Source: Variovorax paradoxus | GTDB lineage: Bacteria > Pseudomonadota > Gammaproteobacteria > Burkholderiales > Burkholderiaceae_C | NCBI RefSeq assembly: GCF_018614875.1 | Contig: NZ_JAGGNW010000011.1 | Span: 248,001-312,000 of the forward strand | Direction: 5' to 3' | DNA length: 64,000 nucleotides | In this document: piece by piece, positions 8,058 through 12,185 of the stretch | Layout: every line of letters begins with the position of its first letter | Position numbering within the stretch: the stretch's first letter is position 1 | Program-made: the position numbers and the translations under genes | Notes under the pieces: model-generated | Seen by the model: only the letters and a program-made list of their open reading frames with translations | What the model was told of the DNA's origin: nothing | Database searches by the model: none

Positions 8058-8648
8058 CTATCGGCGGTCCACCAGGGCATGCGCAATGGTGCCGAGATCG
8101 ACGTACTCGAGCTCGCTGCCGGCGGGCACGCCGCGCGCGAGGCGCGTCACGTTGAGGCCGCGCTGCCTGAGCGCTTCGCCGATCACATGCGCGGTGGCTT
8201 CGCCCTCTGCCGTGAAGTTGGTGGCCAGGATGACTTCGCTCACCGTGCCGTCGAGCGCGCGGTCGAAGAGCTTCTGCAGGCCGATTTCCTTGGGCCCGAT
8301 GCCGTCGAGCGGGCTGAGCTTGCCCATCAGCACGAAGTAGTAGCCGCGGAAGGCTCCGGTGCGCTCGAGCGCGGCCTGGTCGGCGGGCGTTTCGACCACG
8401 CAGAGCTTGCCCGCGTCACGGCGCGTGTCGAGGCACACATTGCAGACCGGCGCTTCGGTGAAGGTGTTGCAGCGCTCGCAATGCCGCACGTTGCCGGCCG
8501 CCTGCTGCAAGGCGCGCGCGAGCAGCTGCGCGCCCTCGCGGTCGTGCTGCAGCAAGTGGAACGCCATGCGCGAGGCCGATTTGACGCCAACGCCGGGCAG
8601 GCGGCGCAATGCATCGACCAACGCGTCGAGCGAACTGGCGTCGGCCAT
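8058..8648 (-). CDS. recR: Recombination mediator protein RecR
   Basis: 196 aa protein of the RecFOR pathway, which loads RecA at SSB-coated gaps. Visible are the N-terminal helix-hairpin-helix ([16 protein letters not shown]), the C4 zinc finger (CERC to CNVC, about residues 56-71), and the Toprim domain beginning at [10 protein letters not shown] choose the ATG at 8646-8648; a TTG directly upstream is possible. It lies 7 bp after ybaB in the conserved dnaX-ybaB-recR operon. Confidence 0.95.
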
Positions 8649-8655
8649 CAATGAC

Positions 8656-8988
8656 TCAGAACGGCAGCTTCATGCCAGGCGGGAGGCCCGGCATGCCGGC
8701 AGTGAGCTTGCCCATCTTCTGCTCGCTGGTTTCCTCAGCCTTGCGCACCGCGGCATTGAAGGCCGCGGCCACGAGGTCTTCGAGCATGTCCTTGTCGTCG
8801 GCCAGCAGGCTCGGGTCGATGGTGATGCGCTTGACGTCGTGCTTGCAGGTCATCACGACCTTGACCAGGCCGGCGCCCGACTCGCCTTCGACCTCGATGG
8901 TGGCCAGTTCTTCCTGGGCCTTCTTGAGGTTGTCCTGCATTGCCTGCGCCTGCTTCATGAGGCCGGCCAGTTGTCCTTTGTTGAACAT
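8656..8988 (-). CDS. ybaB: Nucleoid-associated protein, YbaB/EbfC family
   Basis: 110 aa small DNA-binding protein. The start at [15 protein letters not shown] fits the family; an upstream extension of the frame is untranslated. The body has the conserved [20 protein letters not shown] and [14 protein letters not shown] segments, and the C-terminus is the Gly/Pro/Met-rich tail typical of YbaB. It lies between dnaX and recR on the minus strand. Confidence 0.94.
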
Positions 8989-9086
8989 TGTTGGTCCTGA
9001 TTGGTTGGAAATGGGGGAAGGATAAGAGAGATGGCGGTCGAACCGGAATGCCGCAAGAGCCGGCACGGGTTTTCAGTAGCGTTCTG

Positions 9087-10949
9087 TCAGGCCGGCTTCA
9101 GTGTTCCAGGCACGATCTTCGCATCGAATTCGCGCATCAGCATCTGCACTTCGGGATCGCTGCGAATGGCCTCCTCGGCCACGCGCTGGCGTTCGTCGGA
9201 CGCCTGCTTGTTGCGGCGCGCGGGGCTGTCGACCACGCCGCCGATTTCAATGGCGAGCTTCACGCCATGGCCCAGCGCGGCCAATGCATCGGTGAGCTTC
9301 TCGCGGGCGGAAGGCTGGTTGAGCAACTCGCGCTCCACGCGAAGTATCCACTGGTCGACATCGCGCGCCACCAGCTGCGACTGGAGCGCGAGTTCGCGCG
9401 CCAGGGCGTTGATGCTCTCGGCCGCAATCAACTGCGTGACGGTGGCGTGCCAGAAATCGCCGTCCTCGCTGGGCGGAATGGGCGGCGCCGGACCGCGCTG
9501 CTCGTCGGTTCGCGGCACGTCCCGCTGGCTCGGCGGCGGCTGAACGCGCATGGGAACGGCAAGCACCCTGGGCGCCTCGGCAGCCGTCGCGGGCTCGGCC
9601 ACGGCGGAAGGCCGGGAGCCATCCGGCCGCATGGGCTCGCTGACCACGGCCAGACGTTGACCGGCCGGCGCCGGGGTGGCTCGAGGCGCCGGTGGGGGGA
9701 CCGAAACCGAAACCGGCGATGCGGCGGCGATCTCCGTCGTTCCCCGAGCCGCCGCTACGGCCGCGGGGACCGAAACTGCCCTGGGGGCTTCATTCAGAGT
9801 TTTTTTTTCCGTGGAGGCCGGAGCAGCAGCCGCGCTGGAAGAAGGCTTGAAGGCCAAAAGCCGCAACAGCACCATGGTCAGCGCCGCGTACTCATCGGGT
9901 GCCAGGCCCAGTTCGCCGCGCCCGTGCAGGCAGAGGCTGTAGAGCAGCTGGGTTTCGTCGGCAGGCATCAGCGACGCGAGGCGCGCCGTATCGGCCGCGT
10001 CGGGGTCGGTGGCCGAATCGGCGGACTCCGCGCGCGAGGGCACCGCCTGCAGCACGGCCATGGCCTGCAGCACCGCCGTCATTTCTTCCAGCGTGGAAGC
10101 GGCGGACATGCCGTCGCGCCGCAGCGCCTCGGAGGTGTCGACCACCGTCTTGCCGTCGCCCTGCGCCAACGCCTCGATCAACTTGAACACATGGCCGCGG
10201 TCCACGCTGCCGAGCATCTGGCGCACGCCGGTTTCGAGCAGCTCGCCGTTGCCGAACGCGATGGCCTGGTCGGTGAGCGACAGCGCGTCGCGCATCGAGC
10301 CGCGTGCGGCACGGGCCAGCAGGCGCAGCGCCTGCGGCTCGGCCGGCACCTGTTCGGTCTGCAGCACGCTCGTGAGATGTTCGAGCACCGTCTCGGGCGC
10401 CATCGGCCGCAGGTTGAACTGCAGGCAGCGCGACAGCACCGTGACCGGCACCTTCTGCGGATCGGTGGTCGCAAGAACGAACTTGAGGTATTCCGGCGGC
10501 TCTTCGAGCGTCTTCAGCATCGCGTTGAACGCGGTGTTGGTGAGCATGTGCACTTCGTCGATCATGAAGACCTTGAAGCGCCCCTGCACCGGCTTGTAGA
10601 CCGCCTGCTCGAGCAGCGACTGCACCTCGTCCACGCCGCGGTTCGATGCCGCGTCGAGCTCGGTGTAATCGACGAAGCGGCCCGAGTCGATGTCCTTGCA
10701 GGCCTGGCACACGCCGCACGGCGTGGCCGTGATGCCGCCCAGCCCGTCCGGGCCCTGGCAGTTGAGCGACTTGGCAAGAATGCGAGAGACGGTGGTCTTG
10801 CCCACGCCCCGCGTCCCGGTGAAAAGGTAGGCGTGATGCAGGCGCTGCGTGGTCAACGCGTTCTCGAGCGCCTGCACCACGTGCCCCTGGCCGACCATCT
10901 CACCGAAGGTTTTGGGACGGAACTTGCGAGCGAGCACGAGATAAGACAT
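9087..10949 (-). CDS. dnaX: DNA polymerase III subunits gamma/tau
   Basis: 620 aa clamp-loader ATPase (tau). Walker A GTRGVGKTT is at residues 45-53, and the C4 zinc module is C64, C78, C81 and C84. DEVHML is Walker B, and sensor and lid domains I-III run to about residue 370. A Pro/Ala-rich linker is followed by a C-terminal tau-specific domain. At codons 381-384 an A9 run creates a slippery site from which both other frames stop at once, predicting a gamma form near 386 aa. The start is MSYLVLARKFRPKTF; the frame upstream runs into an intergenic repeat. First gene of dnaX-ybaB-recR. Confidence 0.96.
   Translation of the reverse strand: MSYLVLARKFRPKTFGEMVGQGHVVQALENALTTQRLHHAYLFTGTRGVGKTTVSRILAKSLNCQGPDGLGGITATPCGVCQACKDIDSGRFVDYTELDAASNRGVDEVQSLLEQAVYKPVQGRFKVFMIDEVHMLTNTAFNAMLKTLEEPPEYLKFVLATTDPQKVPVTVLSRCLQFNLRPMAPETVLEHLTSVLQTEQVPAEPQALRLLARAARGSMRDALSLTDQAIAFGNGELLETGVRQMLGSVDRGHVFKLIEALAQGDGKTVVDTSEALRRDGMSAASTLEEMTAVLQAMAVLQAVPSRAESADSATDPDAADTARLASLMPADETQLLYSLCLHGRGELGLAPDEYAALTMVLLRLLAFKPSSSAAAAPASTEKKTLNEAPRAVSVPAAVAAARGTTEIAAASPVSVSVPPPAPRATPAPAGQRLAVVSEPMRPDGSRPSAVAEPATAAEAPRVLAVPMRVQPPPSQRDVPRTDEQRGPAPPIPPSEDGDFWHATVTQLIAAESINALARELALQSQLVARDVDQWILRVERELLNQPSAREKLTDALAALGHGVKLAIEIGGVVDSPARRNKQASDERQRVAEEAIRSDPEVQMLMREFDAKIVPGTLKPA
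9800..9809 (-). other. A9 slippery run in dnaX, predicted gamma/tau frameshift signal
   Basis: On the coding strand the sequence is G followed by nine A, read as GAA-AAA-AAA-ACT-CTG in the tau frame. A -1 shift, or insertion of one A, gives AAC-TCT-GAA-TGA. A +1 shift, or loss of one A, gives CTC-TGA. Gamma would be 386 aa in the first case. The position, just after domain III, is where gamma forms end in other bacteria. Confidence 0.75.
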
Positions 10950-11020
10950 TGCGGGCATTCTAAAAGGCGCCACGCCAGTTCCTCGGCCCCACCCCGCAAT
11001 CAAAAAGGCCCCTTCTTTTC

Positions 11021-11113
11021 GTGGGATACCGCGGAACCGGCTTTGCCGGGCCGCTGGTATCGCCCCCAGCAGGGGGTGGGCGAAGCGACACGAAGTGCGC
11101 GCAGCCTGGGGGG
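11021..11113. repeat. Dispersed intergenic repeat, copy 1
   Basis: About 93 bp between dnaX and the SRP RNA gene, highly similar to 29592-29683. Shared blocks include GCGGAACCGGCTTTGCCGGG and AGCGACACGAAGTGCGCG. It contains two small hairpins, CCGGCTTTGCCGG and CCCCCAGCAGGGGG. It has no gene of its own and looks like a REP/MITE-type dispersed element. Confidence 0.75.
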
Positions 11114-11114
11114 T

Positions 11115-11120
11115 TACAAT
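11115..11120 (+). promoter_or_regulatory. -10 element of the SRP RNA gene
   Basis: TACAAT lies 10 bp upstream of the predicted 5' end of the SRP RNA, right after repeat copy 1. No clear -35 was seen; it would fall inside the repeat. Confidence 0.5.
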
Positions 11121-11130
11121 ACCCCCTGAC

Positions 11131-11219
11131 GGGCCTCCCTGCATGGTGAAGTGGCCAACCGGGTCAGGTGGGGAACCAAGCAGCCCTAACTGCGTAGTCA
11201 GTGCCAGGGGTAAGGCTCG
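11131..11219 (+). ncRNA. ffs: Signal recognition particle RNA (4.5S type)
   Basis: The universally conserved SRP apical domain is clear: GGTCAGG, then TGG-GGAA-CCA tetraloop helix, then AGCAGCC (11162-11185). The ends GGGCCTCCCTG and CAGGGGTAAGGCTC can pair, giving a small bacterial SRP RNA of about 90 nt. It binds Ffh and targets ribosomes to the membrane. The exact ends are estimated. Its position directly upstream of dnaX, on the opposite strand, is a known arrangement. A GAGTTCT-CA-AGAACTC hairpin follows at 11243-11258 without a T-run. Confidence 0.88.
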
Positions 11220-11312
11220 TCAACCTAACATCAAGAAGCCGTGAGTTCTCAAGAACTCGCGCGCTGAAAAGGGGTTACGGGCCCCAGCCCGCAGAGCCCC
11301 CTGTTCCCGTCC

Positions 11313-12185
11313 TCACGTACTTCCAGCGCCGACCAGCATCTCGCATGGCCCGACGAAGCCTTCACTGCCTTCGAACTGGCGCAGGGCCTCTTCGATCGCA
11401 TTCCAGGTGCTCGCGCGCTCGGCCTCGTCGAGCCCGACCATCATCTGGTGCAGCGCCCCGAAGGACTCGCGTTCGAAGCGCACGCATTCGGCTGCACTCG
11501 CCAGCCGCACCGGCGACGGCACCCGGCGCACCTCGATGTCGCGCAAGCCGGCTTTGGCAAACGCGGCCTCCAGGGCACCCTCGGCACCGAGCGAAAAGGG
11601 CCCGGGCTGCCCCGGCAGCGGCGCGGGAAGCCGCGCGCGTTCGCGGATGATCTTTACGGGGATCGAGAAGAAGGCATTGCGCTCGGGCGTCGAGTAGACG
11701 ACCGCCGACACCCGCCCGCCCGGACGCAAGGCCCGCCGCATGCCGGCGAGCGCGCGCTGCTGGTCGGGGAAGTAGATCAGGCCCACTCGGCTGATCGCCG
11801 CGTCGAAGCTTCCGGCGGCCAGCGTGTCGAGCGCCTCGCCGTCAAGTTCGAGAGTCTCCAGGTTCGACAGCCCCGCGGCTTTGGCATCCGCAGCCGCGCG
11901 CTCAAGCAAGGCCGGCGCGATGTCGGTTGCGAGCACGCGGCCGCTGGCACCTGCGCGCCGCGCGGCACCGATCGACTGCTCGCCCGCGCCGGCCGCGACG
12001 TCGAGTACCCGGGAGCCCGGTCCGATGCGCGCCAGCTCGAACATCGTCTCCGTCGCATCGCCCAGCCAGCGGCCGAGAAACGGTCCCCAGCGATGCCAGG
12101 CCTCGGCGGCAGCTTGCCATTGAGCGCGGGTGGTGGTCTTGAAGGCGACGGCGTCGAATGCGGGCGCGGCTGTGGCGGTGGTCAT
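11313..12185 (-). CDS. Class I SAM-dependent methyltransferase
   Basis: 290 aa. SAM-binding motif I is SRVLDVAAGAGEQSI (about residues 58-72), acidic loop ATDIAP follows, and motif III is in LRPGGRVSAVVYS. The fold resembles UbiE/COQ5-type methyltransferases, but the acceptor is unknown. It is divergent from an HxlR-type regulator across 109 bp that hold a near-perfect 21 bp palindrome, so the regulator most likely controls this gene. Confidence 0.85.
   Translation of the reverse strand: MTTATAAPAFDAVAFKTTTRAQWQAAAEAWHRWGPFLGRWLGDATETMFELARIGPGSRVLDVAAGAGEQSIGAARRAGASGRVLATDIAPALLERAAADAKAAGLSNLETLELDGEALDTLAAGSFDAAISRVGLIYFPDQQRALAGMRRALRPGGRVSAVVYSTPERNAFFSIPVKIIRERARLPAPLPGQPGPFSLGAEGALEAAFAKAGLRDIEVRRVPSPVRLASAAECVRFERESFGALHQMMVGLDEAERASTWNAIEEALRQFEGSEGFVGPCEMLVGAGST

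Follow-up and report, generated by a model that had tools for sequence, protein, structure and literature searches.

The window, that is, the whole stretch of 64,000 nucleotides that was analysed, carries dnaX on the minus strand (9087..10949), with an open reading frame whose translation gives a zero-frame product, tau, of 620 aa and 66.3 kDa. Upstream of the gene lies a small SRP RNA gene (11128-11224, + strand), which was the sole match when positions 9000-11500 were compared with Rfam at gathering thresholds. Downstream, the stretches at 8058-8651 and 8656-9066 resemble recR and ebfC/ybaB. Within the dnaX product, Pfam recognised the ATPase part and its lid, domain III (PF12169, residues 240-366, 9852..10232, minus strand), and tau domain V (PF12170, residues 495-612, 9114..9467, minus strand), the last being the alpha-interacting domain according to its Pfam description.

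Between domains III and V, the gene contains nine consecutive A's in the sense direction (9800..9808, minus strand; T9 on the + strand), next to the G of GAA at 9809. The sense sequence around the run reads ACG GAA AAA AAA ACT CTG AAT GAA GCC and is translated as ...STEKKTLNEA.... Counted from the dnaX ATG at 10949, GAA is codon 381; codons 381-387 are GAA AAA AAA ACT CTG AAT GAA, and the run falls within codons 381-384 (9809-9798). A preliminary description of this DNA had proposed that the run is a slippery site with a stop close by in each of the other frames, and the sequence bears out the parts of this claim. The in-frame GAA-AAA-AAA-ACT-CTG is there with its nine A's (9808-9800); a lost A or a +1 shift leads to CTC TGA (9799-9794), and an extra A or a -1 shift leads to AAC TCT GAA TGA (9801-9790). 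The +1 frame, that of transcripts with A8 or A11, ends at the TGA at 9794..9796, and the -1 frame, that of A10 transcripts or of a -1 ribosomal shift, at the TGA at 9790..9792, both on the minus strand. The proposed placement of codon 381 after domain III agrees with the Pfam match to this domain, which extends up to residue 366. The zero frame does not end at the site; tau is encoded by a single frame that crosses the run and stays open for 620 codons.

Two proteins could be made from such a gene by slippage. RNA polymerase would slip on A9 and produce dnaX mRNAs with 8, 9, 10, 11 and so on A's. The mRNAs with 9 (or 9+3n) A's would give tau, of 620 aa, and the other A counts would lead to a stop within a few codons in either off frame, giving a gamma of 384 aa from A8, 385 aa from A11, or 386 aa from A10, whose stop is at 9792-9790. 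The predicted mass is 41.3-41.5 kDa. For the shortest form, the computed coding stretch is 9794..10949 (minus strand), which is a prediction only. Since domain III ends at residue 366 and domain V starts at residue 495, the short product would consist of domains I-III, with domain V absent.

The A9 run by itself is unremarkable, and it is its conservation that exceeds chance. The window has 66.7% GC, with one A/T run of nine and one of eight. The genome (5.59 Mb) contains 8 distinct runs of at least nine A's, a count that is not lower than the ~3.4 expected per 5.59 Mb under a first-order model using the dinucleotides of the window, so a lone run is not remarkable. Judged by third-position GC alone, four of the other seven genomic runs are seemingly intergenic and three touch a coding-like frame, one of them (L008) only at its edge. 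Another of these three, the A10 run L010 (G000 contig C36, 46678-46687), lies in a frame that resembles an insertion-sequence transposase by eye; some genes of this kind use slippage according to the excerpts of PMC1088944.

Within the genus, 58 of the 61 sampled genomes had a usable locus (all but G012, G021, and G036), and re-querying 8 genomes yielded 2 new usable loci, for 60 in all. The string GAAAAAAAAACTCTGA occurs exactly in 57 of the 58 loci, the remaining one (G004) having A8. The preliminary description had staked its proposal beforehand on conservation of the A-run in close relatives, and the comparison did not refute it: A9 was present in 59 of the 60 loci, all taken regardless of the run. 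In one of the 59, L208, different codons follow A9. As independent genomes carry the same run, it is very unlikely to be an error of sequencing in the window. A loose pattern, kept out of these counts, was found in 98 of the 101 same-genus genomes among the matches listed. One member of the genus (G316), rated 99% complete, gave no DnaX match at E 1e-20, perhaps owing to an assembly gap.

The linker is variable in the genus, with the site lying between codons 371 and 385, and the kept string opposes the codon preference of the gene: in codons 1-360 of same-genus dnaX, Lys is encoded by AAG in 87.5% of cases and by AAA in 12.5%, ACT accounts for 2.0% of Thr, and AAT for 11% of Asn. Both Lys codons of the site are nevertheless AAA in 59/60 loci. 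In 58 of the 59 same-genus A9 loci, each of the two off frames reaches a stop within 10 codons, versus 0.3% of control positions. These codon choices speak against the explanation that the run is kept for its amino acids (EKKT/EKKS) or as some other DNA or RNA element, with stops that are coincidental or act as error guards. Such an explanation would account for the single codon phase seen throughout, and close off-frame stops would also be selectable as a guard at an accidentally slipping site; however, it gives no evident reason for a slippery run in a variable linker, and two genera have another frameshift-type signal in this same linker. We regard it as improbable, on a par with or slightly below the sliding of ribosomes discussed further on.

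Single genomes depart from the run length of nine. In G004 (locus L062, A8) and L289 (A10), the zero frame ends shortly past the run, at 387 and 385 aa, and another frame stays open, as tau would require. These are either homopolymer errors or natural swaps of the tau and gamma roles.

At the level of the family, 114 genomes had a match. We read 111 loci, sampled as one genome per genus plus L071, with G272, G290, G301, and G304 left out. A9 is present in 60 of these loci and A10 in one more, always in the same codon phase. Domain III had a recognisable end in 59 A9 loci, and the run follows that end by 4-42 codons. When the 60 A9 loci are aligned, conservation is high from GAA to CTG and GCT/GCG is weakly preferred immediately upstream; in codons 1-360 of the A9 genes, AAA encodes 23% of Lys on average. 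The 50 loci without A9 include one A8 (L163), two A_AAA_AAG (L113 and L178), and three that were hard to judge (L204-L206, whose frames are cut or broken, and which were counted as lacking the run and excluded from the tree). Gamma is therefore either not needed everywhere in the family or made in another way.

A tree of DnaX domains I-III (117 rows, quick search, simple model, with 49 of 114 inner branches weak) placed every A9 locus in one clade of 66 genera (SH-aLRT 99), and label shuffles on the tree never matched so few changes. This clade, defined without the site, comprises 60 A9, 1 A10, 1 A8, 2 A_AAA_AAG, and 2 members without the run (L190 and L185, the latter on a long branch of unsure place). 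In the 51 rows outside it, codons 350-430 hold no run. Named relatives agree: the best 80 listed loci, which are those nearest to the family member L126 and not to the window, include 77 A9, 2 A10, and 1 A_AAA_AAG, under titles of Acidovorax, Alicycliphilus, Comamonas, Curvibacter, Delftia, Diaphorobacter, Extensimonas, Hydrogenophaga, Polaromonas, Pseudacidovorax, Ramlibacter, Rhodoferax, Variovorax, and MAGs. The eight loci titled Variovorax all carry GAAAAAAAAACTCTGAATGA, as does the window, which is therefore probably from Variovorax.

The stops are kept together with the run. Among the 61 genera with A9 or A10, a +1 stop follows after at most 1 sense codon in 52 (2.9% of control positions) and after at most 3 in 57 (5.7%), no more than 7 sense codons precede the -1 stop in 58 (15.6%), and the two stops are both reached within 10 codons in 58 (4.1%), the controls being other linker positions of the same genes (n=6461). 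The stops are retained in these loci although the downstream codons vary. Exceptions are L208 and L108, which miss the near +1 stop (38 and 67 codons), and L122, with its -1 stop at 15 codons. On this evidence the A9 is, with little doubt, a selected recoding site, whichever route the recoding takes.

As for the route, -1 programmed ribosomal frameshifting is the first alternative to slippage by RNA polymerase. It would operate on the A_AAA_AAA contained in the run and give a gamma of 386 aa, much as E. coli dnaX shifts on A_AAA_AAG. The heptamer is in phase within the run, the -1 stop is conserved as described above, and two genera of the clade carry the E. coli heptamer itself. However, the +1 stop is nearer than the -1 stop and equally well kept, and frameshifting needs no +1 stop. 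The ninth A points the same way: it is present in 61 of the 62 clade genera having AA AAA AAA, although an A_AAA_AAA ribosomal heptamer would not need it, and its retention counts for transcriptional slippage. To avoid circular counts, AAA AAA and the ninth A were counted only where sampling was independent of the run, namely among the same-genus loci and across the clade, as loci picked for A9 hold them by construction. Transcriptional slippage predicts stops in both frames and a rule on run length, and both hold.

The two genera with the E. coli heptamer provide a contrast within the clade. The genus of G288 gave a match in 36 of 41 genomes, of which 30 were read; in 30/30 of these loci, and in 5/5 of the genus of G218, xxA AAA AAG replaces A9. 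Loci of this type are L113, L212-L245, and L280. At a fixed distance upstream of the heptamer they have an element with the consensus GGG RGY GCC GYC GAG CCN, in which GGG is found in 31/35 loci and GAG in 32/35. L280, titled Polaromonas, has the same upstream element, so the larger genus, that of G288, is probably Polaromonas. The full form of the element pattern matched 27 of the 36 loci of this type and a relaxed form all 36; among 377 other loci the relaxed form alone matched, in L178, from the genome of L213. Pairing of GGGRG with the anti-Shine-Dalgarno tail averages -7.4 kcal/mol at -19, and a 7-mer of -6 kcal/mol or lower is found between -30 and -8 in 35/35 loci, versus 9 in a control stretch. 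The GCC GYC GAG CC that separates the heptamer from the Shine-Dalgarno-like part is as strongly conserved as the purine run.

Stop placement in these genera follows a different pattern. A -1 stop lies within 7 codons in 35/35 loci (control 24.7%), and a +1 stop within 7 codons in only 9/35 (control 23.5%). Judging from these sequences, the A_AAA_AAG group retains the -1 stop alone, which is what ribosomal -1 frameshifting requires. The A9 group, in contrast, retains both stops, and this comparison favours transcriptional over ribosomal slippage on A9. In the tree, the free search set the two genera apart, and constraining them to one clade gave a better likelihood (+25; p-AU 0.81), so a single exchange to A_AAA_AAG suffices.

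No conserved stimulator of ribosomal frameshifting was found in the A9 loci, in line with a third prediction of transcriptional slippage, which has no need of one. Upstream of the run, the 61 A9 loci show no peak of anti-Shine-Dalgarno pairing (best mean -1.9 kcal/mol between -30 and -8), and a 7-mer of -6 kcal/mol or lower occurs there in 7 of them versus 15 in the control stretch, far from the 35/35 of the A_AAA_AAG group. The preliminary description had seen no clear stem-loop downstream, and none that is conserved was found by folding the A9 group against codon shuffles: the 61 loci fold no better than their shuffles (mean z -0.23 and -0.19), and the sequence downstream in the window is GC-rich and folds, yet not beyond shuffles (z -0.19). 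Taking these points together with the stops and the ninth A, we think it unlikely that -1 frameshifting is the route on A9.

Some folding was detected upstream. Over the 60 nt that precede the run, folding is somewhat better than in dinucleotide shuffles (mean z -0.56, sem 0.16) and codon shuffles (-0.95), and the same place in 41 loci without the run gave -0.18 and -0.40, respectively; the 30 nt adjoining the run do not stand out (z -0.16; -0.33). The better folding of the 60 nt leaves room for an upstream RNA element, and hairpin-driven slippage at A9 is a possibility that these values do not establish.

A ribosome could also slide on the A run and enter both off frames with the mRNA unchanged. 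Sliding may run forwards and backwards, and in an E. coli system truncated products arise from as few as three AAA lysines, according to the excerpts of PMC4363877. The same excerpts describe A11 as robustly truncating and state that two or more AAA codons are normally translated without sliding; the zero frame of the window gene has two AAA codons. We hold sliding to be rather less probable than -1 frameshifting.

Cleavage of tau by a protease could yield a gamma-like protein with no role for the run. A product of this kind is made by proteolysis from Caulobacter dnaX, where no recoding is needed (PMC5009743, in excerpt), and family members without the run may use this route. Proteolysis, however, leaves the conserved run and stops unexplained, and we give it hardly any weight.

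Collectively, the evidence makes it likely that A9 is a selected recoding site at which transcriptional slippage of the Thermus type is the main route to gamma. The preliminary description had seen in the site the design for such slippage, a view supported by the run, its length, and both off-frame stops being kept together. From these patterns we infer that RNA polymerase slips rather than the ribosome, and that gamma is present in the cell and makes up a share of its DnaX.

The best comparison is with Thermus thermophilus, whose dnaX transcriptional slippage is said to have been described by Larsen et al. in 2000. According to the excerpts of PMC1088944 and PMC5009743, its transcripts slip on A9 and the arrangement is the same as in the window, with a zero-frame tau ORF, a sense A9, near stops in both other frames, and a short product without the C-terminal part. 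In these excerpts, the Thermus run lies seven-eighths of the way through the gene, versus codon 381 of 620 in the window; the position between domains III and V is that of the window gene. Thermus is also a distant lineage. Conservation throughout a clade and a second type of signal inside that clade are what is seen here relative to Thermus. The A9 dnaX with double stops is thus of the Thermus kind, and what is new is a clade-wide member of it.

In E. coli, dnaX reaches the same outcome by a -1 frameshift on A_AAA_AAG with a Shine-Dalgarno-like element and a stem-loop, gamma ending after domain III. The window gene, in contrast, has A_AAA_AAA_ACT and no AAG heptamer, with neither a Shine-Dalgarno-like element nor a conserved stem-loop found. 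The Polaromonas-type genera combine the E. coli heptamer with a Shine-Dalgarno-like element ~15 nt upstream, whereas that of E. coli dnaX lies ~10 nt upstream. Two-ORF dnaX genes (Chlorobium and others; GeneTack, PMC3711429, in excerpt) share a poly-A site with the window gene; there tau needs a shift, whereas in the A9 genes tau is in the zero frame, with the exception of the single genomes G004 and L289. In a limited literature search, we found no description of the A_AAA_AAG exchange within the clade or of the GGGGAG gene described below. In the excerpted main text of PMC3711429 and PMC5009743, Acidovorax, Comamonas, and Polaromonas are absent and Delftia appears for magnesium chelatase only.

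Beyond the family, we read 80 of 124 matching genomes of the order. A run of at least eight A's between codons 345 and 530 is present in 13 of these 80 loci, among them L365, with 29% GC, and L078, with its run at codon 519. One origin of the run is therefore too simple an account of the order as a whole. In family f49 (L336, L404, L405), the linker has A9, as CAA AAA AAA ACT, and the -1 frame stops one codon later; in family f12 (L348, L354) it has A10, as GAA AAA AAA AAG CTG A, and here it is the +1 frame that stops one codon later. Given the near off-frame stops of these runs, A-run recoding may be recurrent in the order, and the f49 and f12 sites may be independent.

Members of family f19 displayed an inverted dnaX (L088, L091, L367, L368, L370, L371, L379, L380, L383, L391, L392, and L394-L399). 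In these loci, the zero frame ends at 423-473 aa and the +1 (= -2) frame is open, in 9/9 loci of genus g21 and 8/8 of g212. The tau C-terminus was located in the +1/-2 frame by tblastn in 11 loci and by eye in 6, and in L088 Pfam recognised domain V there (PF12170, E 1.1e-8). GGGGAG is found near the zero-frame end in 17/17 loci, as nGG GGA GAR in 16 and as TGG GGG GAG in L398. In a manual comparison, 17/17 loci are compatible with tRNA-Gly making a -2 step from GGA or GGG onto GGG, and 16/17 with tRNA-Glu making one onto GAG. Thus, g21 and g212 appear to make tau by a +1/-2 shift near the candidate site GGGGAG. Known cases of -2 frameshifting include phage Mu (PMC5009743, in excerpt). Among 19 other f19 loci that were read, the tau C-terminus is in the zero frame in 12, and 7 were not placed.

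Based on these findings, we lean towards the view that one order makes the same protein pair by at least three routes that replace one another. A9 slippage would have been gained once, at the base of the 66-genus clade. Within the clade, a Polaromonas-like genus and a relative would have exchanged it, probably once, for -1 frameshifting on A_AAA_AAG with the fixed upstream element (GGG RGY GCC GYC GAG CCN NNA AAA AAG). In f19, the gene would be inverted, with gamma in the zero frame and tau made by a +1 or -2 shift near GGGGAG.

If true, this three-route reading would make dnaX a natural experiment on the substitution of slippage by RNA polymerase and slippage by the ribosome for one another. 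The two stops, the run length, and the neighbouring group with another signal amount to a test of the sort set out in an excerpted passage of Baranov et al. Gamma production by slippage, if true, would be fixed throughout a large group, many of whose members are in culture, including Variovorax, Acidovorax, Comamonas, Delftia, Hydrogenophaga, and Rhodoferax, and the reason why cells retain gamma would become testable outside E. coli.
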